DNA from: Gemmatimonadota bacterium
GTDB lineage: Bacteria; Gemmatimonadota; Gemmatimonadetes; Gemmatimonadales; GWC2-71-9
NCBI GenBank assembly: GCA_003222055.1
Contig: QHUT01000075.1
Location: 1-34,990, forward strand
DNA: 34,990 bases
Direction: 5' to 3'
Within the stretch, counting starts at the first letter, position 1. Each line of letters begins with the position of its first letter. Below, one piece after another: positions 2,235 to 33,426 of this stretch. The notes beneath the pieces were generated by a model. It ran no database searches, had not been told where the DNA came from, and saw only the letters and a program-made list of their open reading frames with translations. The translations under genes were made by a program, and so were the position numbers.

Positions 2235-2317
2235 TCGTAAGTTGTAAGCCTTAAGTCGTGAGCTTGAGACTGACGGCCCGCGACTCTTGAGGCTTACAGC
2301 TTGCGGCTTATGACTTG
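2235..2317. repeat. Degenerate 7-bp-period repeat in inverted orientation
   Basis: The spacer between the PilX-like and kinase genes is built of degenerate heptamers: GTCGTAA, GTTGTAA, GCCTTAA, GTCGTGA, GCTTGAG on the left, and a similar series on the other strand on the right. Bases 2238-2251 can pair with 2290-2303 over 14 positions if G-U pairs are allowed, with a 38-base loop. It may act as a weak transcription terminator, but there is no T-run after it. It resembles in style the heptamer repeat at 21197-21313. Confidence 0.6.
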
Positions 2318-2335
2318 GGGCTGAGTATTCTCCCC

Positions 2336-3529
2336 ATGCCGTCCAAGCCTGCGCTCCGAACCGAGCTGCTCTTCTACCTCTCGTTCCTCGCCGCCGCCGC
2401 ACTCCTGGTGGGCGTGGCGACCATGCTGGTGGTGAACGTGCTGGCGCCGCAGCGCACCTTCGTGCTGCTCCTGCTGCTGGTCGCCCTCGAGGTGGGCGTG
2501 TTCGTCGTGTTCGGCCGCCATCTGGTGAACCGGCTGGTGCTGTGGCCGCTCGACCGCGTCGTGGCCACGGCGGACGCCGTGGCGGACGGCGACCTGGCGC
2601 GACGCGCTCCCGACGCCGAGACCAGCGACTTCTCCACCCTCGCCGAGCGTCTCAACCGCATGACCGACCACCTGCTCGACGCCCAGGGCCAGGTGGTGCG
2701 CGCGGAGAAGCTCGCGGGCATCGGTCGGCTCGCGGCGGGAATCGCCCACGAAGTGGGTAACCCGCTGGGCGCGCTCGGTACCTACGTCGAGGTGCTGCGG
2801 CGGCGGGGCGCGGACGCCGAGGTGATCGCCGGCGTGACGCGCGAGCTCGAGCGCATCGACCGGATCGTGCGCGGGCTGCTGGACTACGCGCGCCCCCACG
2901 AGGAGGCGCTGGCCCCGCTCGATCCGGCGGCCGTGGCGCGGGGCGCGTACGGGTTGCTCGAGGCCCAGGGGGCGCTGCGGTCCGCACACTCGACGCTCGA
3001 GCTCGAGCCCGGCGTTCCCCGGATTCTCGGCCGGGCCCATCTGCTCGAGCAGGCCATCGTCAACCTGGTCCTGAACGCGGTGGACGCCGCGCCCGACGGC
3101 GTCGTGATTTTGGGAGCGCGGCCCTGGGACTACCAGCCACGGCAGCCCGACCCGAAGCGGGGAACGGACCCGAGGCCGGCTCGCTACCCCCGCGCGGCAG
3201 AGCGGCGTCCGGCGCGCCCGGAGTTCTCGCCCGGCCAGCCAGGTGCGTTGCTGTTCGTGGCGGACTCGGGGCCGGGCGTGCCGTCCGACGACCGCGACAA
3301 GGTCTTCGACCCGTTCTACACCACCAAGTCCGCCGGCCGGGGCACGGGGCTGGGCCTCGCGATCGTGGCCCGTGCCGTGGACGACATGGGCGGCGTCGTG
3401 TGGGTGGACCGGGCGCGCGAGGGCGGGGCCGCGTTCAAGATGTTCTTCCCACGCGCGGATCTCACCCTCCGTCCCCGTGCGGTTCCCCCGCTCCACAAGG
3501 TGGAGAGGGGCCCAGGGGGTGAGGGATGA
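2336..3529 (+). CDS. Membrane sensor histidine kinase, PilS/NtrB-like
   Basis: The ATG gives 397 residues; an in-frame TTG 21 bases upstream is an alternative, and neither has a strong ribosome-binding site. Two membrane segments (about 12-37 and 41-60) are followed by a HAMP-like region (about 62-115, with PLDRV and ADAVADGDLA). The dimerisation/phosphoacceptor motif is GRLAAGIAHEVGNPLGAL, with His138. The ATP-binding domain has the N-box (NLVLNAVDA, Asn247), the G1 box DSGPGVP (Asp310), DPFYTTK and GRGTGLGLA. It phosphorylates a partner regulator, almost certainly the next gene, whose start overlaps this stop. Position between two minor-pilin sets points to control of pilus genes. Odd: about 40 Arg/Pro-rich residues (roughly 262-300) separate the N-box and G1 box, and the last 15 residues are encoded by a repeat element shared with aroC. 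Confidence 0.9.
   Translation: MPSKPALRTELLFYLSFLAAAALLVGVATMLVVNVLAPQRTFVLLLLLVALEVGVFVVFGRHLVNRLVLWPLDRVVATADAVADGDLARRAPDAETSDFSTLAERLNRMTDHLLDAQGQVVRAEKLAGIGRLAAGIAHEVGNPLGALGTYVEVLRRRGADAEVIAGVTRELERIDRIVRGLLDYARPHEEALAPLDPAAVARGAYGLLEAQGALRSAHSTLELEPGVPRILGRAHLLEQAIVNLVLNAVDAAPDGVVILGARPWDYQPRQPDPKRGTDPRPARYPRAAERRPARPEFSPGQPGALLFVADSGPGVPSDDRDKVFDPFYTTKSAGRGTGLGLAIVARAVDDMGGVVWVDRAREGGAAFKMFFPRADLTLRPRAVPPLHKVERGPGGEG
3461..3524. repeat. Palindromic element, family D (kinase/regulator junction)
   Basis: The core 3482-3524 begins GTTCCCCC, has a hairpin CTCCAC-AAG-GTGGAG (3491-3505) flanked by C and G runs, and ends GGGGGTGAGG. It aligns without gaps to 16854-16896, the aroC/aroK junction, with 35 of 43 positions identical by eye. 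Upstream bases 3461-3476 partly mirror the right end. The element encodes the kinase C-terminus (VPPLHKVERGPGGEG) and its GGGGGTGAGG lies where the Shine-Dalgarno sequence of the next gene should be. Confidence 0.8.
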
Positions 3530-4890
3530 GGCGCGTGCTGGTGGTCGACGACGAGCCGGGGCTGCGCCAGTCGTTGGGCCTGCTGCTCAGCGACGCGGGC
3601 TACGACGTGGTCGCCGAGGGGAGTGGCGCGCGCGCGCTCGAGCGCGCCCGCGCCGAGCCCTTCGACTTGATCCTGTGCGACGTGCGCATGGCCGACATGG
3701 ACGGCCTCGCGTTCCTGCGCGCGTACAAGAGCGGCGGCGGGCCCGCGCTCGTGATCATGATGAGCGCCTACGGGGGCGAGGAGGCGGCCCTCGCCGCCAT
3801 GAAGGAAGGGGCGTACGACTACGTCGCCAAGCCGTTCCGGCCGGACGAGGTGGTGTTGACGCTGCGCAAGGCGGAAGAGCGCGAGCGGCTCGGTCACACC
3901 ATCGCGACACTAAGAGCACAGCTGGACAGCAGTCCCGCCGCCCGTGCCCTGATAGCCGAAAGCCCGGCGATGCGGCAGGCGCTCGACGTGGTGGCACGCG
4001 TGGCCGCGCACCGCACGACGGTGCTCATCACCGGGGAACGCGGCACCGGGAAGGAGGTCATCGCCCAGGCCATCCACCGTGCGGGTCCGCGGGCGGCAGG
4101 CCCGTTCGTCGCGGTGAACTGCGCGGCCATTCCGGAGAACCTGCTCGAATCGGAGCTGTTCGGCTCCGTGAAGGGCGCCTTCACGGGCGCCTCCGGCGAC
4201 CGGCCCGGTCTGTTCGAGCAGGCGGACGGCGGCACGCTGCTGCTGGACGAGATCGGCGAGCTGCCGCTGCCCTTGCAGGCCAAGCTGTTGCGGGTGCTCC
4301 AGGAAAGTGAGATCCGGCGGGTGGGCGACCAGAAGACCCGGCGCGTCGACGTCCGGCTCCTCGCCGCCACGGCCAGAGACCTCGCCGCCGAAGCCGCGGG
4401 CGGCCGGTTCCGGCACGACTTGTTCGATCGAGTGAACGTCGTGGCCATTCATCTGCCGCCGCTCGCCGAGCGACGCGAGGACATCGTACCGATGGCCAGG
4501 CACTTCGCGGCTCAACTGGCGCGCCGGCTGGGCCACAATCTGGGGTTGAGCGAGGCAGCCGTCGCATGGCTGCGCGAGCAACCGTGGCCGGGGAACGTAC
4601 GGGCACTGGAGCACGCGATCGAGCGGGCGGCGGTGCTGACTGACAAGGAGATCCTCGAGCCGGTGGACTTCGGCCCGCCGGCACACGCCGGGCTTGCGCC
4701 CGGGGTCAGCACAAGCCCGACCACAACACTGACCCCGGGGACCCTCCGGGAGGTGGTCGAGGCCGCGGAGCGTCGGGCGATTACGGCTGCCTTGGAGGAG
4801 GCGGGCGGCAACCGCCGGGCCGCTGCGAAGCGGCTCGGCGTAAGCCTTAGGACCCTGTTTTATAAGATGGATCGGTACGGCGTCGACTAA
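3526..4890 (+). CDS. Sigma-54-dependent response regulator, PilR/NtrC-like
   Basis: The protein has 454 residues. An N-terminal receiver carries the acidic pair in VLVVDDE, the phosphoacceptor Asp52 (LILCDVRM) and the conserved Lys in VAKPF. A AAA+ domain follows, with Walker A GERGTGKE (Lys176), the sigma-54 contact motif GAFTGA at 217-222, Walker B LLLDEIGEL and the arginine-finger region. A C-terminal Fis-type helix-turn-helix reads NRRAAAKRLGVSLRTLFYKM. It should activate sigma-54 promoters when phosphorylated by the upstream kinase, with which it overlaps by ATGA. Likely targets are the neighbouring pilin genes, though I did not find a convincing -24/-12 site before 5025. A family-A palindrome is inserted in the linker before the HTH (residues about 388-405). 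Confidence 0.93.
   Translation: MRRVLVVDDEPGLRQSLGLLLSDAGYDVVAEGSGARALERARAEPFDLILCDVRMADMDGLAFLRAYKSGGGPALVIMMSAYGGEEAALAAMKEGAYDYVAKPFRPDEVVLTLRKAEERERLGHTIATLRAQLDSSPAARALIAESPAMRQALDVVARVAAHRTTVLITGERGTGKEVIAQAIHRAGPRAAGPFVAVNCAAIPENLLESELFGSVKGAFTGASGDRPGLFEQADGGTLLLDEIGELPLPLQAKLLRVLQESEIRRVGDQKTRRVDVRLLAATARDLAAEAAGGRFRHDLFDRVNVVAIHLPPLAERREDIVPMARHFAAQLARRLGHNLGLSEAAVAWLREQPWPGNVRALEHAIERAAVLTDKEILEPVDFGPPAHAGLAPGVSTSPTTTLTPGTLREVVEAAERRAITAALEEAGGNRRAAAKRLGVSLRTLFYKMDRYGVD
4688..4740. repeat. Family-A palindromes inside the PilR-like gene
   Basis: A reverse-orientation copy has stem CCGGGC (4688-4693), loop TTGC, stem GCCCGG (4698-4703) and then GGTCAG. A second, partial copy in forward orientation starts CTGACCCCGGGG at 4729. 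Both are translated in frame as AGLAPGVS...TLTPGT in the linker between AAA+ and helix-turn-helix domains. Confidence 0.75.
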
Positions 4891-8139: not shown

Positions 8140-9192
8140 ATGGCCCTTTTTGGGTTCTTGGGCGGCAAAAAAACCTCGGTCGGCTTGGACATCGGCTCCG
8201 GGATCATCAAGGTGGCCGTCATTGACCATTCCGGCAGCGAGGCGGAGCTGGTCAAGGTGGCCACGACCGAAGTCGCCGCCGACGCCATTGTGGAGGGGGA
8301 AGTCATGGACCCCGGGATCGTGGCGGAAGCGATCCGGGGTCTGTTTTCCACGGCTGGGGTCAAGCACAAGTCGGTGGTCACGGCGGTCGGGGGCCGCGAC
8401 GTGATCGTGAAGAAGATCCAGATGGACCGCATGAAGGAGGGGGACGCCCGGGAGGTGATCCGCTGGGAGGCCGAGCAGCACGTGCCGTTCGACATGGCCA
8501 ACGTGGAGCTCGACTTTCAGATCCTCGACCCGGACGCCGAGGGGCTGCAGATGAACGTGCTGCTCGTGGCCGCCAAGCGCGAGCTGGTGGAGAGCCGCAC
8601 GTCGCTCCTGGGTGAGGCGGGGCTCGAGGCGGCGATCATCGACGTGGACGCGTTCGCGATCCACAACGCGTTCGAGTTGAACCATCCCGACGCGATGCAG
8701 GGGGTCGTGGGGCTGGTCAACATCGGCCACGAAGTGACCAACGTGAACATTCTGGAGGACGGCGTCCCGGTGCTGACGCGCGACCTGTCGGTGGGCACGC
8801 GGCGGTTCCGCGAGGACCTGCAGCGGGAGAAGGGGCTGTCGGCCGAGGACTCCGAGCGGGTCATCCAGGGGCAGACGCAGAGCGCCGACCTGGCGCAGTA
8901 CGTCGACGCGCGGGGCGAGGAGATCGCGGTGGGAGTGGAGCGGGCGGCCGCGTTCCTCGCGACGGCTTCGCGGTCGGCGGGGGGCCTTGGCCGCGTGTAC
9001 ACGATCGGCGGCGGCGCCCGGGTGCCCGGTCTCAACGAAGCGCTCTCGAACCGGCTGCGCGTGCCGGTGGAGCTCGCGAGCCCGGTGCAACGCCTCAAAG
9101 TGCGCGACAGCGTGTTCGAATCGGTCTCGGTGGACGAAGTTGCGCCGCTGCTGATGCTGTCCGTGGGTCTGGCGCTGAGGCGCGCCGCATGA
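8140..9192 (+). CDS. pilM: Type IV pilus assembly protein PilM
   Basis: The 350-residue protein is an actin/FtsA-like ATPase of the cytoplasmic face of the pilus alignment complex, which binds the N-terminal tail of PilN. VGLDIGSGIIKVAVID is the phosphate-1 motif, GLVNIGHEVTNVNIL the phosphate-2 region, and YTIGGGARVPGL the adenosine motif. REVIRWEAEQHVPFD is a PilM hallmark. Length is normal for the family. It is first in pilMNOPQ, behind the promoter at 8069-8097, and overlaps pilN by ATGA. The ATG is preceded by CCTAGGCACTT, without a clear Shine-Dalgarno sequence, but no other start fits the family N-terminus. Confidence 0.97.
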   Translation: MALFGFLGGKKTSVGLDIGSGIIKVAVIDHSGSEAELVKVATTEVAADAIVEGEVMDPGIVAEAIRGLFSTAGVKHKSVVTAVGGRDVIVKKIQMDRMKEGDAREVIRWEAEQHVPFDMANVELDFQILDPDAEGLQMNVLLVAAKRELVESRTSLLGEAGLEAAIIDVDAFAIHNAFELNHPDAMQGVVGLVNIGHEVTNVNILEDGVPVLTRDLSVGTRRFREDLQREKGLSAEDSERVIQGQTQSADLAQYVDARGEEIAVGVERAAAFLATASRSAGGLGRVYTIGGGARVPGLNEALSNRLRVPVELASPVQRLKVRDSVFESVSVDEVAPLLMLSVGLALRRAA

Positions 9193-9902
9193 TCGAAATC
9201 AATCTACTGCCCGGCAAGAAAAAGAAGGCGGCGGGGGCCGGCGCGGGCTTCAGGCTGGCCCTGCCGGACTTCCAGGGGCTCCTGGCCAGCATCAAGAACC
9301 CGTGGCTCCTCACGGCGAGCGCGGCGTCCGTGATCGTGGTCGGGGGCGGGCTGCTGCTGTTCATCACGCAGAGCACCCGGCTGCGCGTGCTCGAGTCGCG
9401 GCTCGACGCGGTACGGGTCGAGAAGCGGCGCTTCGACGCGGTGATCGCGCAGAAGCGCCAGTCGGAAAAGATCCGCGACTCGCTGGTGTCCCAGATCAAC
9501 ATCATCCGCGGCATCGACGCCGACCGCTATATCTGGCCGCACGTGCTCGACCAGATCACCAAGGCCCTGCCGCCCTACACGTGGCTCACGGGGGTCTCGC
9601 CGGCCGCGGGCGGTTCACCCGGGCAGGCGCCGGCCCCGCCGGCGGGTACGAGCCCCGCGGACTCGACCGGCGCGCCGCAGGTGCGCATCTGGATCACGGG
9701 CAGCACCGTGGACATCCAGGCGTACACGACCTTCCTGCGCCAGCTCGCCGCGTCGCCGTGGCTCACCGACGTGTCTCCCGCGACGTCGTCGACGGTGATC
9801 GAGTCGGACCGGCCGGTGACCGCGTTCAATGTGGCGGTGCGGTACCGGGTCGCGGACTCCGTCTACATCCGCACCGTGCCCGTGTCCCAGGCGGTGAGGT
9901 AG
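9189..9902 (+). CDS. pilN: Type IV pilus assembly protein PilN
   Basis: The 237-residue protein starts MIEINLLPGKKKK, the cytoplasmic INLLP motif by which PilN binds PilM. One membrane segment lies at about 36-58 (WLLTASAASVIVVGGGLLLFI), followed by a periplasmic coiled coil (RLRVLESRLDAVRVEKRRFDAVI) and a ferredoxin-like fold domain. A Pro/Ala-rich stretch of about 25 residues interrupts the periplasmic domain near residue 140. With PilO it forms the inner-membrane heterodimer that links PilM to PilP and PilQ. Its ATG overlaps the pilM stop, and two bases separate it from pilO. Confidence 0.95.
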   Translation: MIEINLLPGKKKKAAGAGAGFRLALPDFQGLLASIKNPWLLTASAASVIVVGGGLLLFITQSTRLRVLESRLDAVRVEKRRFDAVIAQKRQSEKIRDSLVSQINIIRGIDADRYIWPHVLDQITKALPPYTWLTGVSPAAGGSPGQAPAPPAGTSPADSTGAPQVRIWITGSTVDIQAYTTFLRQLAASPWLTDVSPATSSTVIESDRPVTAFNVAVRYRVADSVYIRTVPVSQAVR

Positions 9903-9904
9903 CA

Positions 9905-10552
9905 ATGGCCCTGTTGCCGCAGGACAGGCAGAGCCAGGTGATGCTGCTCATCACCATGCTGATGGGCGGACTGGGCTGGGCGTTCTGGAGCTACTGGGAG
10001 CAGCCGACCGGCCAGCAGATCGAGGCGACGCGCGTCGAGATCGACAGCCTGCAGCGCATCATCGACCGCGCGAAGGCGGATCTCGCGAGCGGCACCGTGG
10101 AAGACCTGCGGCGCAAGGTGGAGCAGTACACGGCGCTGCTCGGCGTGATGCGCCAGCTCGTGCCCGAGAAGAACGAGGTCCCGGCGCTGATCGACGACAT
10201 CTCGACCAAGGCGAAATTGCGCGGCGTGACGATCGGGCGGCTCGAGCCGCTCGCGGTGGAGGCGGGCGCGCCGTTCGACACCTACAGGTACCGCCTGGAG
10301 ATCATCGGGCACTACGACCAGCTGGGCGAGTTCCTCTCCGACATCGCGAGCCTGCGGCGCATCATCGTGCCCCAGGACGTGATCCTCAAGCCGGCGCAGG
10401 CGCAGGCGCAGCGCTTCATGGCCGATACGCTCGGCGCGCTGCTCGAGGCGCAGTTCGCCATCCGCACCTTCGTGAAGGCGGCAGCCCCGCCGCCCGCTCC
10501 GGCCGGCAAGCGACCCGCGGCCAAGCCGGCGGGGGGGGGAAGCGGCCGGTGA
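9905..10552 (+). CDS. pilO: Type IV pilus assembly protein PilO
   Basis: The ATG at 9905 gives 215 residues. One membrane segment (about 12-30, VMLLITMLMGGLGWAFWSYW) is followed by a coiled coil (QIEATRVEIDSLQRIIDRAKADL) and a periplasmic domain containing VPALIDDISTKAKLRGVTI and YRYRLEIIGHYDQLGEFLSDIASLRRII, the typical PilO core that pairs with PilN. The tail is Ala/Pro/Lys-rich and low complexity. It works in the inner-membrane alignment complex. The stop overlaps the GTG start of pilP. A longer open frame upstream exists but lies in another frame of pilN and is not used. Confidence 0.95.
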   Translation: MALLPQDRQSQVMLLITMLMGGLGWAFWSYWEQPTGQQIEATRVEIDSLQRIIDRAKADLASGTVEDLRRKVEQYTALLGVMRQLVPEKNEVPALIDDISTKAKLRGVTIGRLEPLAVEAGAPFDTYRYRLEIIGHYDQLGEFLSDIASLRRIIVPQDVILKPAQAQAQRFMADTLGALLEAQFAIRTFVKAAAPPPAPAGKRPAAKPAGGGSGR

Positions 10553-11016
10553 GCGCGCGCATCGCGGTCGTCCTGGCCGCGCTCGTCGCCGCCGGACCGC
10601 TGGCGGCACAGGCGAAGCCCAAGCCCGCGCCCAGGGCGCCGACCGACAGCGCCAAGGCGGATTCGGCCAAAGTCGACAGCACGGCTGTGGCGCCGGTACT
10701 GGTGCGCGAGCAGTTCTCCTACGAGGGCGGCGGGCGCGATCCGTTCCTGTCGCTGCTCAAGTCGGGTGACATCCGGCCCCTGCTCTCCGACCTGAAGCTG
10801 GTCGGGATCTACTACGACGGGCGCTTCATCGCGCGCAGCGTCGCGGTGCTGCGCGACGTGACCAACAACAAGATCTACCGGGTGAAGCCCGGCGACATCA
10901 TCGGGCGCCTCAAGGTCACCACGATCCGCCCGCGCGAAATCGTGTTTACGGTGCAGGAGTTCGGTTTCGAGCGGCAGGAGAGTCTGCAGCTCGCCAAGCA
11001 GGAGGTAACGCCATGA
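10549..11016 (+). CDS. pilP: Type IV pilus assembly protein PilP
   Basis: The GTG start overlaps the pilO stop, giving 155 residues. A short N-terminal hydrophobic segment ending AAGPLAAQA looks like a cleavable signal peptide; there is no lipobox Cys, although many PilP proteins are lipoproteins. A disordered Ala/Lys/Asp linker follows, then the PilP core: FSYEGGGRDPFLSLL, DLKLVGIYYDGRFIARSVAVLRD, YRVKPGDIIGRLKVTTI. PilP is periplasmic and bridges the PilN/PilO dimer to the N-domains of PilQ. Its stop overlaps the pilQ ATG (ATGA). Confidence 0.93.
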   Translation: MSARIAVVLAALVAAGPLAAQAKPKPAPRAPTDSAKADSAKVDSTAVAPVLVREQFSYEGGGRDPFLSLLKSGDIRPLLSDLKLVGIYYDGRFIARSVAVLRDVTNNKIYRVKPGDIIGRLKVTTIRPREIVFTVQEFGFERQESLQLAKQEVTP

Positions 11017-12935
11017 AGTACATCGCAGCCCTTGTCCCGTTCCTGCTTGGGCTGACCCCGGGCGCAAGCCCGGGGATGACCGGAGCGGAGTTGCGGGACG
11101 GCGAGGTAAAGGCCGTCAGCGTGCTCCCCGCGGCGCGCAGCGTGGAGGTCGTGATCGATCTCCAGGGCGCGGTCGAGGTGCAGGACTTCACGTTGGCCGG
11201 TCCGGCCCGCTTGGTGATCGACCTGCAGGGCGCCCGGCTCGTCGCGCCCGCCGTGCTGTACGACGGCCAGAATCGGGGGGGCATCAAGAACCTCCGCTAC
11301 GCGCAGTTCCGTCCCGGCGTCGTGCGGGTGGTGATCGATCTCGACGTGCTCAAGGACTACCAGATCGAGCGGCGCGCGGGGCAGGTGCGCGTGAAAATCG
11401 GTACCGAGCGGACGACATTCGCCGCGTGGTCGAGCCAGGACTTGGCGTCCCGTAACCCCGGACTTGCGTCCGGGGTCAGCGTGCCCGGGGGTAAGCCTGA
11501 CCCCGGGCGCCAGCCCGGGGTCCACGGGGGTGAGGCCGCCCGTGTGGCGGCCCCCGCGGCGAGCGGGGCCGAGCTCTCGATCGACGCCTACCTCGCGGCC
11601 CATGCGCGCGAGAGCGACCAGTCGCAGGCGCCCCGCATCACGGTCACGTGGGACAACGCGGACTTCCGCGAAGTGGTCGCGGGATTCGCGGCGTTCAGCG
11701 GTCGCACCATCATCATCTCCAAGGACGTGAGCGGGAAAGTCAGCGCGGAGATCAAGAACCAGCCGTGGGATCTCGCGTTCGCTGCCGTGCTCGAGTCGCA
11801 GGCGCTCGCCGCCACCACCCTCGAGGGCGGGATCATCCAGGTCATCGACAAGAAAGACCTGGCGCGCGCCGACTCGACCGTGCCGGTGGAGACACGCCTG
11901 GTGCGCATCAATTACGCCCGCGCCTCGGCGATGGTCGCGTCCATCCAGTCGATCCTCACGAAGCGCGGCGCCGTGGTCGCCGACTCGACCAACAACGCCC
12001 TCGTGATCACCGAGATCTCGAGTCGCATCAATCGGGTCGAGGATTTCGTCAAGGGCCTCGACGTCCGCACGCCGCAGGTGTCGATCCAGGCGAAGATCAT
12101 CTTCGTGGACCGCACCGACGTGGAGAACCTCGGCATCAAGTACGATCTCGGCTCCCAGACCCAGTTCTTCAACCGGCTCATCCAGCGGCCCGATCCGCGG
12201 ACCGCGAAGGCCGTCGACACCAACGGTGACGGGGTGCCGGACGCGTTCGTGCCGCAGGACAACTTCGCGCCCGACCAGGTGATCGTCGACCTGGGCGGCA
12301 ACTCCCTCTCGGCCATCGGCAACGCCTCGCAGGAGGTGGTCAACCCCGCGCTCAACCTGATTTTCTCGACGGCCGTCGGCAACTTCAATCTGACCACGTT
12401 CCTGCAGGCCCTGCAGCGCGTCGAGCTGTCCGACCTGCAAGCCGAGCCCACGATCACCACGCTCGACAACCGGCCGGCCGAGATCCTGGTGGGCGACCGC
12501 GTGCCCATCCGTGTGATCGACGCGAGCGCGGCGACGGGCACCACCAACGCCGTCCCCCGCGCGACCGTCCGGTTCGAGCAGACGGGCATCAACCTCAAGG
12601 TCACGCCGCACGTGACGGCGAACCGCCAGGTGCTCATGGAAGTGCATGCCGAGAACTCCGCCGTGAAGCCCGCGTCGGTGGACATCGGCTTCACGTTCCA
12701 GACGCAGCAGGCCGACAACCAGATTCTCGTCAACGACGGCGAGACGGCGGTCATCGGCGGCCTCACGGTGACCTCGGTCACGGTAACGAAGAGCGGAATT
12801 CCGTTCCTTGTAGACCTGCCCCTGCTCGGGAAGCTGTTCGGCTTCTCGGAAGAGCAGGAGCAGCGGCGCGATCTCCTGATTCTCATCACGCCACACATCA
12901 TCGACGACCTGGTGACGCCCAGCACCGGGAAGTAA
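11013..12935 (+). CDS. pilQ: Type IV pilus secretin PilQ
   Basis: The 640-residue outer-membrane secretin forms the pore through which the pilus passes. Order of domains: signal peptide (about 1-20), AMIN domain that binds peptidoglycan (about 28-130), linker, STN/N0-type domain (about 208-280, ITVTWDNADFREVVAGFA), NolW-type N1 domain (about 290-355) and C-terminal secretin barrel (about 355-630, with VPIRVIDA, GINLKVTPHV and LLILITPHI). It closes pilMNOPQ. Odd features: one family-A palindrome encodes LTPGASPGMTG directly after the short hydrophobic core of the signal peptide, two more lie in the linker after AMIN, and a calcium-loop-like DTNGDGVPDA is inserted near residue 405, where secretins usually have a variable loop. 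Confidence 0.96.
   Translation: MKYIAALVPFLLGLTPGASPGMTGAELRDGEVKAVSVLPAARSVEVVIDLQGAVEVQDFTLAGPARLVIDLQGARLVAPAVLYDGQNRGGIKNLRYAQFRPGVVRVVIDLDVLKDYQIERRAGQVRVKIGTERTTFAAWSSQDLASRNPGLASGVSVPGGKPDPGRQPGVHGGEAARVAAPAASGAELSIDAYLAAHARESDQSQAPRITVTWDNADFREVVAGFAAFSGRTIIISKDVSGKVSAEIKNQPWDLAFAAVLESQALAATTLEGGIIQVIDKKDLARADSTVPVETRLVRINYARASAMVASIQSILTKRGAVVADSTNNALVITEISSRINRVEDFVKGLDVRTPQVSIQAKIIFVDRTDVENLGIKYDLGSQTQFFNRLIQRPDPRTAKAVDTNGDGVPDAFVPQDNFAPDQVIVDLGGNSLSAIGNASQEVVNPALNLIFSTAVGNFNLTTFLQALQRVELSDLQAEPTITTLDNRPAEILVGDRVPIRVIDASAATGTTNAVPRATVRFEQTGINLKVTPHVTANRQVLMEVHAENSAVKPASVDIGFTFQTQQADNQILVNDGETAVIGGLTVTSVTVTKSGIPFLVDLPLLGKLFGFSEEQEQRRDLLILITPHIIDDLVTPSTGK
11052..11083. repeat. Family-A palindrome in the pilQ signal-peptide region
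   Basis: CTGA, then CCCCGGGC (11056-11063), loop GCAA, GCCCGGGG (11068-11075), then ATGACCGG. The stem is a perfect 8 bp with a GNRA-type tetraloop. It is translated as LTPGASPGMTG at residues 14-24. Confidence 0.85.
11456..11520. repeat. Two family-A palindromes in the pilQ linker
   Basis: The first, in reverse orientation, is CCCCGGAC (11456-11463), loop TTGC, GTCCGGGG (11468-11475), then TCAG. The second, forward, is CTGA, CCCCGGGC (11501-11508), loop GCCA, GCCCGGGG (11513-11520). Both have perfect 8-bp stems. They are read in frame as NPGLASGVS and DPGRQPGV between the AMIN and N0 domains. Confidence 0.85.
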
Positions 12936-26390: not shown

Positions 26391-26889
26391 ATGCGGATCG
26401 GGATTCTGACCATCAGTGACCTTGGTGCCCTGGGCCAGCGCGCCGACACGTCCGGTGACGCGATCGTCGGGTGGGCTGGCGACCACGGGTACGAGGTGGT
26501 CGTACGGAGCGTGGTGCCCGACGAGACCGATCGCATTGCCGGCAAGCTCGCGCGCTGGGCGGACTCGGGTGAGGTCGACGTCGTCCTCACGACCGGGGGA
26601 ACGGGCCTCACCGCACGCGACGTGACGCCGGAGGCGACGGAGGCGGTGCTCGATCGGCTCGCGCCGGGCATCGCCGACGCGCTGCGGTGCGCCGCCGCCC
26701 CGGGGTTCCCACGCGCCTGGCTGTCCCGCGGAGTGGCGGGCACCCGCGGCAAGACGCTGATCGTGAACCTCCCCGGATCCCCCGGAGGCGTGAAGGACGG
26801 GCTTGCCGTGCTCGAGAGCCTTCTCGACCACGCTGTGGCGCTCGTGAGTGGGGCGGCAACCGCGCACGGCGCACCGCGCACCGAAGCAG

Positions 26890-26897
<8 letters not shown>
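26391..26897 (+). CDS. mog: Molybdopterin adenylyltransferase, MogA/MoaB family
   Basis: The 168-residue protein has the MoCF-binding fold: IGILTISD at the start, DTSGDAI, a nucleotide/molybdopterin loop TTGGTGLTARDVTPEAT and the PGSPGGVKDGLAVL motif. The family activates molybdopterin with ATP before molybdenum insertion; MoaB relatives have lost or changed this role, and the two cannot be separated by eye. GGAGG lies five bases before the ATG. The gene overlaps the next one by eight bases. No other molybdenum-cofactor gene is nearby, so its link to the neighbours is unclear. Confidence 0.88.
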
Positions 26898-28398
<1,501 letters not shown>

Positions 28399-28525: not shown

Positions 28526-30226
28526 GTGGACTTTAAGATCGATCCGGGACTCTGCGTGGCGTGCATGGCGTGTGTGCGAGTGTGCCCTGCCGACGCCGTC
28601 GCCGTAGAAGGCACCCAGATCCGAATCGTGGACGAGACGTGCACGCGCTGCGGGCTCTGCCTGCCCGCCTGCCCGCATGACGCGATCAAGGCCACGGGCG
28701 ACGTGTCGCGCGCGATCGAGCTGGCGCTGTCGGGCCGGGCCGCGCTCATCCTCTCGGTCGAGTGCGCGGTGTTCTTCTATCCGGCGACGCCGGAGCAGGT
28801 GGTGAACGCCTGCTACGCCGCGGGATTCCGCACGGTGCACCGCGGCGTGCTGGGCGACGAACTGGTGGCCAAGGAGTACCTGACGCTATGGGCGGACCAA
28901 GGCTGGGGGAGCATGATTCGCTCGACGTGCCCGGTGATCGTGGAAACGGTCCGGACGCAATACCCGGAGCTGATCCCGTACCTGGCGCCGATCGCTACGC
29001 CGATCGCGGCGGAGGCGCGCTACTTGAGGGAGCTACATGGCGCGGACACGCCGATCGTGTACGCGGGCGTGTGTCTCACCGAGGGGGGGCGTGACGTGGA
29101 TGCCGCGATCACGTTCGAGGAGCTGGCGGACGTGTTCCGGCGCCGCGACGTGAAGGTCGAGGCCCAGGCGCCGTATTTCACCCGGGTGCCCGAGGAGCGG
29201 CGGCGACACCTGAGCACCGCGGGCGGGTTGCCGCTCGAGCTGCTCATGGAGGAGACGCACGCGAGCCGGCGCTTCCGCAAGCTGCGCGGCTTGGGGGGGC
29301 TGGAAGCGATCGCCCGGGCGGTGGCGGTGGACCGCATCGATGTCGGGTTCGTGGACATCCTGCCGTGCGAGGGGTGTCTCGACCACCCGCTCCTGGGCCC
29401 GCGCAACGAGCTGTTCCGTCGGCGCGAGATCGTGGGGGCCACGGAGCCGGTGCGGGCGCGGGGTCCCGTGGTGGAGGAAGCCGTGGCGCGCGGCGTACGC
29501 GTGGGCGAGGCGTTCCTGATCCTGCGCAACGGCCATCGGCCGCCGGCCGAAGCGGTCGAAGCCGTATTGACCGAGATCGGGCTCGCGCCCAATGGCCGGC
29601 CGTGGGACTGCGGCGCGTGCGGCTACGCCACCTGCCGCGCGTTCGCGGAGTCGGCGGCAACGGGGCGGACCACCCTCAAATCGTGCCCGCCCTACCTCGA
29701 TAAGGTGGGCCGGCAGGCGCAGCTCCAGGCGGCCGTGGACGGGCTCACGGGACTCGCGACGTACCGGGTGCTGCGCGACCGGCTGGCGAGCGAGGTGGCG
29801 CGCAGCGACCGCACCCAGGATCCGTTCGCGGTGCTGTTCGTGGATCTGGACAACTTCAAGCAGGTGAACGACCGGTTCGGCCACGAGGCGGGGAACGACG
29901 TGCTGAAGAGCACCGCGCGGGAATGCGCGGCGCACATCCGCACCACCGACCTCGCGGCGCGCTACGGCGGCGACGAGTTCGTGCTCGTGGTGGTGCACAC
30001 CGGGGTGGAGGGTGCGCGGGTGGTGGCCGACAAGGTCCGCACCGGCGTGGAGGTGATGGGGCGCGACCTGGGCTATCCCGCGGGCCTCGTGACGGTGAGC
30101 ATCGGTGTAGCGGAGCTGTCGCCCGCGCGGGGGCCCGAGCGGGAGGACGTGCTGGTGGCGGCCGACCGCGCGCTGTACCGCGCCAAAGCCATGGGACGCA
30201 ACCAGGTTGCCACGGGAGCAGCGTGA
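28526..30226 (+). CDS. Iron-sulfur / [FeFe]-hydrogenase-like sensor fused to a GGDEF domain
   Basis: The 566-residue protein (GTG start) combines four parts. Residues 1-55 are a two-cluster ferredoxin (Cys10-13-16-20 and Cys39-42-45-49). Residues about 70-350 resemble the [FeFe]-hydrogenase large subunit, but the H-cluster motifs are reduced to single Cys: STCP (Cys135), AGVCLTE (Cys183) and PCEGC (Cys281, Cys284). Residues 355-395 carry a third cluster motif, CGACGYATC (Cys362, 365, 370) plus Cys387, as in the Fes domain. Residues 400-566 are a diguanylate cyclase with GGDEF at 481-485 and an RTTD inhibitory site at 472-475. It probably changes c-di-GMP output with redox state, hydrogen or another ligand; catalytic hydrogenase activity is unlikely. 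No membrane segment is present. Confidence 0.9.
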   Translation: MDFKIDPGLCVACMACVRVCPADAVAVEGTQIRIVDETCTRCGLCLPACPHDAIKATGDVSRAIELALSGRAALILSVECAVFFYPATPEQVVNACYAAGFRTVHRGVLGDELVAKEYLTLWADQGWGSMIRSTCPVIVETVRTQYPELIPYLAPIATPIAAEARYLRELHGADTPIVYAGVCLTEGGRDVDAAITFEELADVFRRRDVKVEAQAPYFTRVPEERRRHLSTAGGLPLELLMEETHASRRFRKLRGLGGLEAIARAVAVDRIDVGFVDILPCEGCLDHPLLGPRNELFRRREIVGATEPVRARGPVVEEAVARGVRVGEAFLILRNGHRPPAEAVEAVLTEIGLAPNGRPWDCGACGYATCRAFAESAATGRTTLKSCPPYLDKVGRQAQLQAAVDGLTGLATYRVLRDRLASEVARSDRTQDPFAVLFVDLDNFKQVNDRFGHEAGNDVLKSTARECAAHIRTTDLAARYGGDEFVLVVVHTGVEGARVVADKVRTGVEVMGRDLGYPAGLVTVSIGVAELSPARGPEREDVLVAADRALYRAKAMGRNQVATGAA

Positions 30227-30227
30227 C

Positions 30228-30980
30228 GTGACGCCACTGAATCCGACGGAGACGCAAGGCGGAGGCGGCGCGGAAGCGCGCGACGCGCTCCCCGTCACGC
30301 CCGCGGCCCAGGCACCCGACCCGTGGGGAGTGAAGCGCGCCGAGAACCTGATCGCGGGCCTCACCGGCGTGTTGTCGGCCCGCGTGGTGGTGACGCCCCT
30401 GGGCGAGGTGAGCGAGATCCACGTGCTCACCACCAGCGACATGCAGCCCAAGCAGGTGGTGCGGAACATCGAGTCGGCGCTCATGGCCCAGCTGGGCGTC
30501 AAGATCGACCACCGCAAGATCAGCGTGGCCCAGACCGCCGACGTGCGGCCCATCGAGCAGATGCAGGAGGAGGCGGTGCGCACCCGCGCCAAGAAGCGCG
30601 TGGTGATCTTCCAGGGGCTCGAGGTACGGCCCTCGGAGCGGCCGCAGCGGGTGCTGATCCGCGTGAAACTGTCGTTCGAGGGGCGGGATGCGGAGTCAGA
30701 GGAGCAGGGGACGGACACGGTGCGGAACCGCGTGGAGGCGGCAGCGCGCGCGGCGTCGCTCTGTCTCGACGAGCTCTTGCCGGACAACTCCGTGGCGCTC
30801 GAGGGGGCGCAGATCATCGAGGCGTTCGATCGGAAATTCGTGCTCGTGGCGGTGCACGGGTTGGGCGGCCGGGAGGCGCAACTGCTGACGGGCACGTGCG
30901 AGATCAAGGAGAGCCCGGAGCGGAGCTCGGTGCTGGCGGTGTTGGATGCGACCAACAGGTGGGCGGATGCGCGGCGGTGA
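30228..30980 (+). CDS. Conserved-looking protein of unknown function
   Basis: The GTG one base after the preceding stop, with GGGAG 10-14 bases upstream, gives 250 residues. I do not recognise the family. After a low-complexity start, residues about 25-100 form an alternating pattern (AENLIAGLTGVLSARVVV, GEVSEIHVLTT, KQVVRNIESALMAQLGVKIDHRKISVAQ), which suggests a small alpha/beta domain. A second, similar block follows about 110-240 (RVVIFQGLEV, VLIRVKLSF, AARAASLCLDELL, VLVAVHGLGG). No signal peptide, membrane segment or catalytic motif was seen. It is co-transcribed with the iron-sulfur GGDEF gene and may be its partner, a point resting on spacing only. Confidence 0.7.
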   Translation: MTPLNPTETQGGGGAEARDALPVTPAAQAPDPWGVKRAENLIAGLTGVLSARVVVTPLGEVSEIHVLTTSDMQPKQVVRNIESALMAQLGVKIDHRKISVAQTADVRPIEQMQEEAVRTRAKKRVVIFQGLEVRPSERPQRVLIRVKLSFEGRDAESEEQGTDTVRNRVEAAARAASLCLDELLPDNSVALEGAQIIEAFDRKFVLVAVHGLGGREAQLLTGTCEIKESPERSSVLAVLDATNRWADARR

Positions 30981-31044: not shown

Positions 31045-31116
31045 CCCCACCTCGTTGTTGCGCAGATTCTACAAACCCCCTTGCGCAGTTCCCGTTTTGG
31101 TGGTATTTCGTGTTCT

Positions 31117-31716
31117 GTGAGTTTGCCTAAACAGAAGCGGTATTGGGGCACGCAGCGCGTGGCGCGCGTCTGTCAGGTGTCGCCGGCGACGGTAGCGAAC
31201 TGGATCGACCAGGGGCTGCTGAAGGGGCACAAGACACCGACGGGGCGCCGGCGCGTGGAGACGGACGATCTCGCGGCGTTTCTGCGGGCGCACGACATGG
31301 CCGTGCCGCCGGATCTGACGCATGGGAACGGGCAGGCGACGGTGGTGGTGGTGGACGACGATCCGGGCTACCTGAAGGCCCTCGTGCTGACGATCGAGCG
31401 GTCCGACCTGGACGTGGAGGTGGTGGAGGCGGCGACGGGGGTGGACGCGCTGCTCGAGATCGGGCGGGTGCAGCCGACGCTGATCGTGCTGGACTACAGC
31501 CTGCCGGACTTGAACGCGCCGGAGGTGATCCGCCGGCTGCTCGAGCCGGGACGCCAGCTGAATGTCGAGGTGATCGTGGTCACGGGCGGGATGCCGGAGC
31601 GGGCGGCGGTGGAGCTGCGGGAGATGGGCGTGAAGACGATCGTGAACAAGGTGGAGGGGATGCAGGCGGTGGTGGAGGCGATGCAGCAGGCGTTGAAGCG
31701 GCGCAAGGTGGCGTAG
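31117..31716 (+). CDS. HTH (MerR/excisionase-type) DNA-binding protein with C-terminal receiver
   Basis: The GTG at 31117 gives 199 residues; an in-frame TTG 36 bases upstream is possible. Residues about 9-57 (YWGTQRVARVCQVSPATVANWIDQGLLKGH...GRRRVE) form a winged HTH of the MerR/BldC type. From about 72 a receiver follows, with the acidic cluster VVVVDDDPG, phosphoacceptor Asp126 (LIVLDYSLPD), Thr in VIVVTGG and a Lys-like position in VNKVEG. The order, DNA-binding domain first, is the reverse of most response regulators. No kinase is adjacent, so its partner is unknown. It follows the unknown protein after a promoter-like spacer. Confidence 0.85.
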   Translation: MSLPKQKRYWGTQRVARVCQVSPATVANWIDQGLLKGHKTPTGRRRVETDDLAAFLRAHDMAVPPDLTHGNGQATVVVVDDDPGYLKALVLTIERSDLDVEVVEAATGVDALLEIGRVQPTLIVLDYSLPDLNAPEVIRRLLEPGRQLNVEVIVVTGGMPERAAVELREMGVKTIVNKVEGMQAVVEAMQQALKRRKVA

Positions 31717-32076: not shown

Positions 32077-33426
32077 ATGCGTCATAGGTTTCACGCCGTC
32101 AAAATCTACGCTCTTGTCGGCGTAGTTTCCCTCGCCGCCCTCAGCCTCCTGATTCTTCCCGGATGGGAGGCGCCGGGACCATTTCCATCGAAGTTTTGGA
32201 ATGCCCTTGCTGCCTTCGCAATCCTTGGAATTGTCTGCGACTCGTTCTCGTCTCGTCTTCCGTTCGCGAAGGTTAGCACGTCGGTAGGGTTCATTCCCCT
32301 CATCGCGTCTGTCCCGCTGTTCCGGCATCCCTGGCCCATGCTAGTTGCGGGTATCACGGCTCTGGTGGTCGAATCTCTGGTTCGGCACAAACCAGCAGTC
32401 AGAGTCTGGTTCAACACTGCGCAATACATGCTCGCCACAGGCCTCGGGGCCCTCGTCTATGTGTCCCTTGGCGGCGTGGTGAGTTCAGACGTCTTCGACT
32501 TCGCGTTGATCCCGTTCGCAGCACTCGTATTCACGTTCTTCATCGTCAACCAGGGGAGTGTGGCGCTCGCGGTGTCGATGAGTAGCGATGTCTCTCTAGG
32601 GGAGGCGTGGGACAGGATTGGGAAGGACACCATAGCAACCGACGCCTTGTCCAGCACTTTGGCGATCCTTCTTGTATTTCTATATGCGAAGCTACAGCTA
32701 CTCGGCATAGCCATCCTGATATTCCCTCTGTTCTTGGTGCGTCAGCTCTACCAAATGAATCAGCAGTTGCAAGAGGAGTTGGAAGAGAAGCTTGAGTTGA
32801 TGGTAAAGGCCATGGAGGCGCGCGATCCCTACACATCAGGCCACTCTCGCCGTGTTTCAGAATACGCCCTTGCGATAGCCAGAGAGTTGAGGCTCCCCGC
32901 GAGGGACCTCGATGGCATCAAGCGTGCTGCCTTGCTGCACGACGTCGGAAAGATCTATGAAGAATTCGCTCCTCTGCTTAGGAAGGAAGGAAAACTAACG
33001 GCGGAGGAAATGATGACGATGCGAACCCACGTGACGCGTAGCGCTCAGCTTGTTGCAACAGCCACGCGACTCCGCGGCGACGTGGAGGCCATGATTCGTC
33101 ATCATCACGAGAATTTCGACGGGACGGGATACCCGGAGGGATTGGCCGGCGATCAGATCCCTATGGGCGCACGTATTATCATGGTGGCCGACACGATCGA
33201 CGCCATGACCACTGATCGGCCCTACCGAAGGGCAATGAGTCTGGCGCGCGCAGTTGAAGAGCTGGAAAAGTACGCGGGCCGTCAGTTCGACCCAGATCTT
33301 GTGAGATTAGTTGCGAAATCAGGGAGTATCCGCAGGCTGCTGGGGTTGGATCGGCGCTTCCCCGAATCTGATGCCGAATCTTCTCGGGCGACGAGGCCAG
33401 CCTGGGCGCAGCGAATCGCACACTGA
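32077..33426 (+). CDS. Membrane-bound HD-GYP phosphodiesterase
   Basis: The 449-residue protein has a hydrophobic N-terminal half with about seven or eight membrane segments (roughly 9-29, 40-58, 70-110, 118-140, 150-175, 195-225), a short coiled linker (QLQEELEEKLELM), and then an HD-GYP domain: GHSRRVSEYA, the metal pair His288-Asp289 (LLHDVGKI), THVTRSAQLV, RHHHENFDGTGYPEGL with GYP at 351-353, and VADTIDAMTTDRPYR. All metal and GYP residues are present, so it should hydrolyse c-di-GMP to GMP; the membrane part is a putative sensor. G+C and codon use are visibly lower than in the genes before it. It faces the - strand gene after an 89-bp spacer. Confidence 0.92.
   Translation: MRHRFHAVKIYALVGVVSLAALSLLILPGWEAPGPFPSKFWNALAAFAILGIVCDSFSSRLPFAKVSTSVGFIPLIASVPLFRHPWPMLVAGITALVVESLVRHKPAVRVWFNTAQYMLATGLGALVYVSLGGVVSSDVFDFALIPFAALVFTFFIVNQGSVALAVSMSSDVSLGEAWDRIGKDTIATDALSSTLAILLVFLYAKLQLLGIAILIFPLFLVRQLYQMNQQLQEELEEKLELMVKAMEARDPYTSGHSRRVSEYALAIARELRLPARDLDGIKRAALLHDVGKIYEEFAPLLRKEGKLTAEEMMTMRTHVTRSAQLVATATRLRGDVEAMIRHHHENFDGTGYPEGLAGDQIPMGARIIMVADTIDAMTTDRPYRRAMSLARAVEELEKYAGRQFDPDLVRLVAKSGSIRRLLGLDRRFPESDAESSRATRPAWAQRIAH

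Follow-up and report, generated by a model that had tools for sequence, protein, structure and literature searches.

An open reading frame of the window (the whole stretch of 34,990 nucleotides that was analysed) was read, in the original prediction, as a relative of the sensory [FeFe]-hydrogenases fused directly to c-di-GMP synthesis, which would tie redox or hydrogen state to a switch of lifestyle. The locus raises two questions: whether the fusion is genuine, and which signal its hydrogenase-like half could read. The host is a soil Gemmatimonadota, with a 3.69-Mb assembly that is 96% complete; its gene content was probed by family search. The features discussed are collected in Table 1.

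Table 1. Features of the cyclase locus, with their positions in the window and the evidence or conservation recorded for each.
Feature	Position	Strand	Evidence or conservation
Sigma-54 activator, upstream	26848..28398	+	Syntenic in 57 of the 72 loci whose upstream sequence is 1.7 kb or longer
Fer4/hydrogenase-like/FeS/GGDEF protein, 566 aa	28526..30226	+	GTG start; Pfam, AlphaFold2, Foldseek
Two ferredoxin-type [4Fe-4S] motifs, C10 C13 C16 C20 and C39 C42 C45 C49 (about residues 4-56)	28535..28693	+	Pfam Fer4
H-domain-like region (about residues 71-300), Cys135, Cys183, Cys281, Cys284	28736..29425	+	PF02906, alignments, fold match
C-terminal cluster domain C362-X2-C365-X4-C370-X16-C387, then signalling helix 388-402	29576..29731	+	PF04060
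Diguanylate cyclase domain, GGDEF 481-485, I-site R472xxD475	29729..30205	+	Pfam and orthologue conservation
Conserved downstream protein, about 245 aa	30207..30980	+	Immediately follows the cyclase gene in 61 of the 63 loci whose downstream sequence is 0.9 kb or longer
MerR-type HTH and receiver protein	31081..31716	+	Conservation limited to the nearer relatives of the window
MASE9-HD-GYP c-di-GMP phosphodiesterase (predicted), HD and GYP motifs	32077..33426	+	At most 3.5 kb away, on the downstream side, in 31 of the 35 loci with sufficient sequence

All four domains of the 566-aa protein exceed the curated Pfam cut-offs, which bears out the composition originally proposed: ferredoxin clusters (Fer4 dicluster, residues 4-55, E 7e-9 to 9e-12), a hydrogenase-like core (Fe_hyd_lg_C, PF02906, residues 87-285, E 1.2e-17, 64.8 bits against a cut-off of 22.1) with its four cysteines at the predicted places, a Fes-type cluster motif (FeS, PF04060, residues 361-389, E 3e-10) and a complete GGDEF domain (residues 402-560, E 2e-39) with an intact I-site. 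An AlphaFold2 model, built with 48 orthologues, has a mean pLDDT of 87 and a pTM of 0.63, the relative placement of the domains being uncertain; hydrogenase and cyclase folds are both retained in the prediction. When the model was compared with the PDB by using Foldseek, diguanylate cyclases were matched at E 1e-16, the [FeFe]-hydrogenase 8ryh at E 7e-14 over 435 columns and T. maritima HydA at E 3e-13. Model, Foldseek matches and motifs agree that a hydrogenase fold lies within residues 70-350 and that the GGDEF domain is not a dead one, and the original prediction is upheld on both points.

About 80 matches at E 1e-60 or better were found among 395 genomes drawn from the phylum; they fall in family f1 and in families f7 and f9 of the same class. 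A scan of contigs, with two peptide patterns taken from the cyclase-fusion family, produced 80 loci; diverged fusions in other phyla could escape such patterns. According to the record titles, these loci come from Gemmatimonadota or its members, with the exception of L105 (Bacterium HR33), L156 (uncultured bacterium) and L107 (Betaproteobacteria). The last one, on a contig binned as Betaproteobacteria (VBCM01000146.1), encodes a 73%-identical orthologue and has the same upstream genes; the contig is probably misbinned. Searching plasmids with the H-domain/FeS part produced six weak matches, the best of them a Ruminococcus albus protein (L164). The same layout recurs in several Gemmatimonadota families, and a chance or frameshifted fusion is ruled out: the direct joining of a HydS-type scaffold to c-di-GMP synthesis is real, and is conserved across Gemmatimonadota orthologues. 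The counts of cysteines and motif residues given below refer to the 72 orthologues spanning the cyclase domain.

Two observations were made beside these counts. One orthologue (L050:2425-6168, genome G183) continues in frame into a DUF5916 region, reaching 1247 aa, which may be a fusion or an assembly artefact. Genomes of family f2, within the same order, encode Fe_hyd_lg_C-like proteins (L054-L059, L070-L079) with proline-rich extensions and with motifs of the CSCP, GxCPGA and GCxCSGA types; Pfam scans of five of them revealed neither Fer4 nor GGDEF.

The order of ferredoxin dicluster, H-domain and CX2CX4CX16C motif is common to the window protein and to the putative sensory [FeFe]-hydrogenases of groups C (M2f, TmHydS) and D (M2e, TamHydS). 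In group C HydS the signalling output follows the cluster domain, as it does here, and the cubane cysteines of HydS are also present in the window's clade. The window protein, with GGDEF as its signalling output, has the complete HydS-like layout, whereas HydS outputs are PAS, kinase or phosphatase domains. In HydDB, [FeFe] groups C1 to C3 are linked to histidine kinases, chemotaxis and phosphatases, and a diguanylate-cyclase-linked group is present only among the [NiFe] enzymes, as group 2c (PMC5037454). A link between hydrogenase and c-di-GMP has been proposed for group 2c, as here (PMC5037454), but that is an unrelated type of hydrogenase, while the window protein is one polypeptide with no working active site. 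The diguanylate-cyclase-fused form is new among sensory [FeFe]-hydrogenase-like proteins; no description of it was found in a limited open-access search, and it may be described elsewhere.

Six of the ferredoxin-type cysteines (C10, C16, C20, C39, C45 and C49) are present in 72/72 orthologues, C13 in 70 and C42 in 60. Within the C-terminal cluster domain, C365 and C370 are found in all 72, C387 in 71, the remaining row being gapped, and C362 in 60. Since C42 and C362 are lost in some orthologues, the exact cluster types vary. At position 42, A, V or S replaces the cysteine in 12 orthologues among the 31 that keep the H-domain cysteines, and in 0 of the 41 that have lost all or all but one of these (Fisher p 9e-6, the rows being related). 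C387 and D405, at the start of the GGDEF domain, are separated by 17 residues in 70/70 orthologues, and in the AlphaFold2 model a single helix (388-402) lies between the cluster domain and GGDEF; the fixed spacing and the single helix suggest a rigid coupling of the clusters to the cyclase. The GGDEF motif is found in 71 of the orthologues (GGDEM in the other one), and the RxxD I-site, D442 and the metal/GTP residues D440, N448, D449 and H453 in all 72, so that a dead GGDEF domain is ruled out. With the site and the metal/GTP residues of a diguanylate cyclase, the protein is predicted from its sequence to synthesize c-di-GMP. Besides this one, the host genome has 19 GGDEF matches, of which 12 exceed 100 bits and count as strong; the 566-aa protein is therefore one c-di-GMP input among many.

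These residues are largely kept, whereas the ligands of the H-domain are present all together or nearly not at all. In profile alignments, Cys135, Cys183, Cys281 and Cys284 correspond to the cubane ligands of solved [FeFe]-hydrogenases; the third motif is one residue shorter (CX2C, not CX3C). The four [4Fe-4S]H cysteines are present in the window protein, yet they are not family-wide: 31 of the orthologues have all four and 41 at most one (none in 30, one in 11), two or three being never seen. On a tree built without the H-domain cysteine columns and rooted on L051-L053, the pattern needs two changes, most simply read as two independent losses, in the RSTSP lineages and again in the RSTDP lineages. 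Among Cys-less orthologues the mean identity is 0.589 for the H-domain, compared to 0.604 for GGDEF; R132, S133 and P288 are kept throughout the orthologues, and H287 nearly so. The H-domain matches the cyclase in conservation even when devoid of its cysteines and is therefore still under constraint; this, together with the kept residues, suggests that it probably serves a role other than hydrogen chemistry.

The diiron-pocket residues C299 and K358 are replaced in the window protein by Thr134 and Glu186, respectively, in comparison with the R. albus plasmid [FeFe] protein L164, which keeps Cys and Lys at these positions and whose gene adjoins a SpoIIE phosphatase gene. As C299 is also missing from group C/D enzymes (PMC8163306), the loss of K358 is the telling replacement. 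HydE, HydF and HydG, the maturases by which the hydrogen link was to be checked, are all below cut-off in the host genome, and HydG is above cut-off in 0/101 family genomes. Neither a NiFe hydrogenase large subunit nor a second PF02906 ([FeFe]) gene was found in the host genome. In the contrast genome G001, HydG (479 bits) is encoded at the same locus as a kinase-linked HydS-type protein; the relatives of the window protein in this genome (L052, L053) carry kinase or PAS outputs. Pocket replacement, maturases below cut-off and the reduction of the cubane cysteines to 0-1 in 41/72 orthologues all set the window protein and its family apart from HydS.

A true hydrogen sensor, whose cyclase would be switched by H2 bound at an H-cluster in the H-domain, would agree with the H-domain fold, the four cubane-type cysteines and the HydS-like layout. 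It would, however, have to work with no maturase or other hydrogenase detected in the genome, with an altered pocket and third motif, and in a family whose members persist after losing the H-domain cysteines in two lineages; on these grounds sensing of H2 was rejected, as highly improbable, and the hydrogen part of the original prediction is not supported. The sensor half very likely reads redox, oxygen or iron-sulfur status, not hydrogen gas. Eukaryotic Nar1/IOP1 sets the precedent for hydrogenase relatives that have a cubane and no diiron site: the hydrogenase fold and the cubane site occur there with neither [2Fe] subsite nor maturases (PMC12621388). The sequences of the window's clade are compatible with such a cubane-only fold; Nar1 differs from the window protein in lacking a cyclase output and in acting as a cluster-assembly factor.

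The product of the gene directly downstream is a likely partner of the cyclase protein. It has no Pfam match; its model (pLDDT 82) is predicted to contain three-strand-plus-helix repeats, and the C-terminal part is predicted to fold in a way reminiscent of the LeuA/CMS regulatory domain, LeuA being the best match (E 1.5e-6, with a low TM-score). Since the HD-GYP gene is found near the cyclase gene, c-di-GMP synthesis and breakdown appear to be encoded together. No Pfam Response_reg match was found in the N-terminal region of the upstream sigma-54 activator. The window had also been described as rich in type IV pilus genes, and such genes are present: pilin-like N_methyl proteins (4979, 5845), PilM, PilN, PilO and secretin genes are located between 4979 and 12935, with a two-component pair near them, at 2315-4890. 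However, pilM-pilQ (8140-12935) lies some 15 kb from the cyclase ORF, with many housekeeping genes in between, a co-location at a distance only.

The favoured reading, considered rather probable, is that of a soluble one-component Fe-S sensor (of redox, O2/NO or cluster supply) which controls c-di-GMP synthesis from a hydrogenase scaffold. Two ferredoxin-type clusters and the CX2CX4CX16C cluster would be carried on the hydrogenase-derived scaffold, and the trigger would be an altered cluster state, such as reduction, O2/NO damage or a change in cluster supply. The C-terminal cluster domain would hand the signal on to the GGDEF pair by way of helix 388-402, whose length is fixed, and this would raise or lower the c-di-GMP output; the I-site would provide product feedback on the cyclase, and the HD-GYP enzyme encoded nearby would oppose it. 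The H-domain would lack a catalytic H-cluster and, in the window's clade, may carry a plain cubane, as Nar1 does. What counts against this scheme is that the C-terminal cluster of TamHydS, a characterised HydS homologue, did not change its redox state under H2, so that a cluster of this kind is not necessarily what moves (PMC13104023). As the N- and C-terminal cluster domains of TamHydS are predicted to pack together (PMC13104023), the conserved clusters may lie together here too. The contrast between largely kept ferredoxin, C-terminal cluster and cyclase residues and all-or-nearly-none H-domain ligands supports the Fe-S sensor, and the domains and predicted folds, the missing HydE/F/G, the invariant linker, the constrained H-domain and the downstream HD-GYP gene were also counted in its favour. 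The redox link of the c-di-GMP output, the other half of what was originally proposed, is plausible.

Cluster occupancy, rather than redox state, might set cyclase activity, with apo and holo forms as in IscR. Several cluster motifs in one protein would suit a sensor of iron or Fe-S supply, and a tuned stability could account for the ligands that some orthologues have lost; no iron-regulated neighbours were seen in the window, nothing found separates supply from redox sensing, and this version is considered unlikely. The ferredoxin/H/FeS part could also sense nothing, and instead anchor the cyclase, constitutive and limited by its I-site, to a complex for electron transfer or assembly. Such a docking platform would explain why the H-domain is conserved despite the loss of its cluster ligands, and why a homologue of the 30207-30980 product is directly downstream in nearly all loci with enough sequence (61/63), but most ferredoxin and C-terminal cysteines, and the length of the helix leading into GGDEF, are strictly conserved, as a signalling input needs, and its probability is rated as low.

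Among the closest known parallels are also VcBhr-DGC and DgcO, hemerythrin- and globin-coupled diguanylate cyclases cited in a 2022 review of c-di-GMP sensors, in which a metal site exerts one-component O2/redox control of GGDEF; they use diiron or heme, in place of which the window protein has Fe-S cluster motifs (PMC8846402). In that review, the passages on redox and O2 name heme, hemerythrin, flavin and disulfide, and the main text gave no match for iron-sulfur, Fe-S, ferredoxin or hydrogenase (PMC8846402). The finding points to a possible class of c-di-GMP inputs based on Fe-S clusters, which goes unmentioned in the main text of the review under these terms (PMC8846402). That the protein could be the first Fe-S-cluster-gated diguanylate cyclase, a sensory hydrogenase turned from hydrogen chemistry to redox/O2 input for c-di-GMP, is put forward tentatively, as a fair possibility short of a probable one. 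If true, related lineages would show a cluster-gated cyclase before and after the loss of the fourth (H-domain) cluster. Hydrogenase-like proteins are usually read as hydrogen handlers; here the fold was kept, likely as a signalling scaffold, after decay of the cofactor site. Intact and Cys-less orthologues would offer a natural experiment on the roles of the H-domain cluster and of the C-terminal cluster in HydS-type proteins (PMC13104023).
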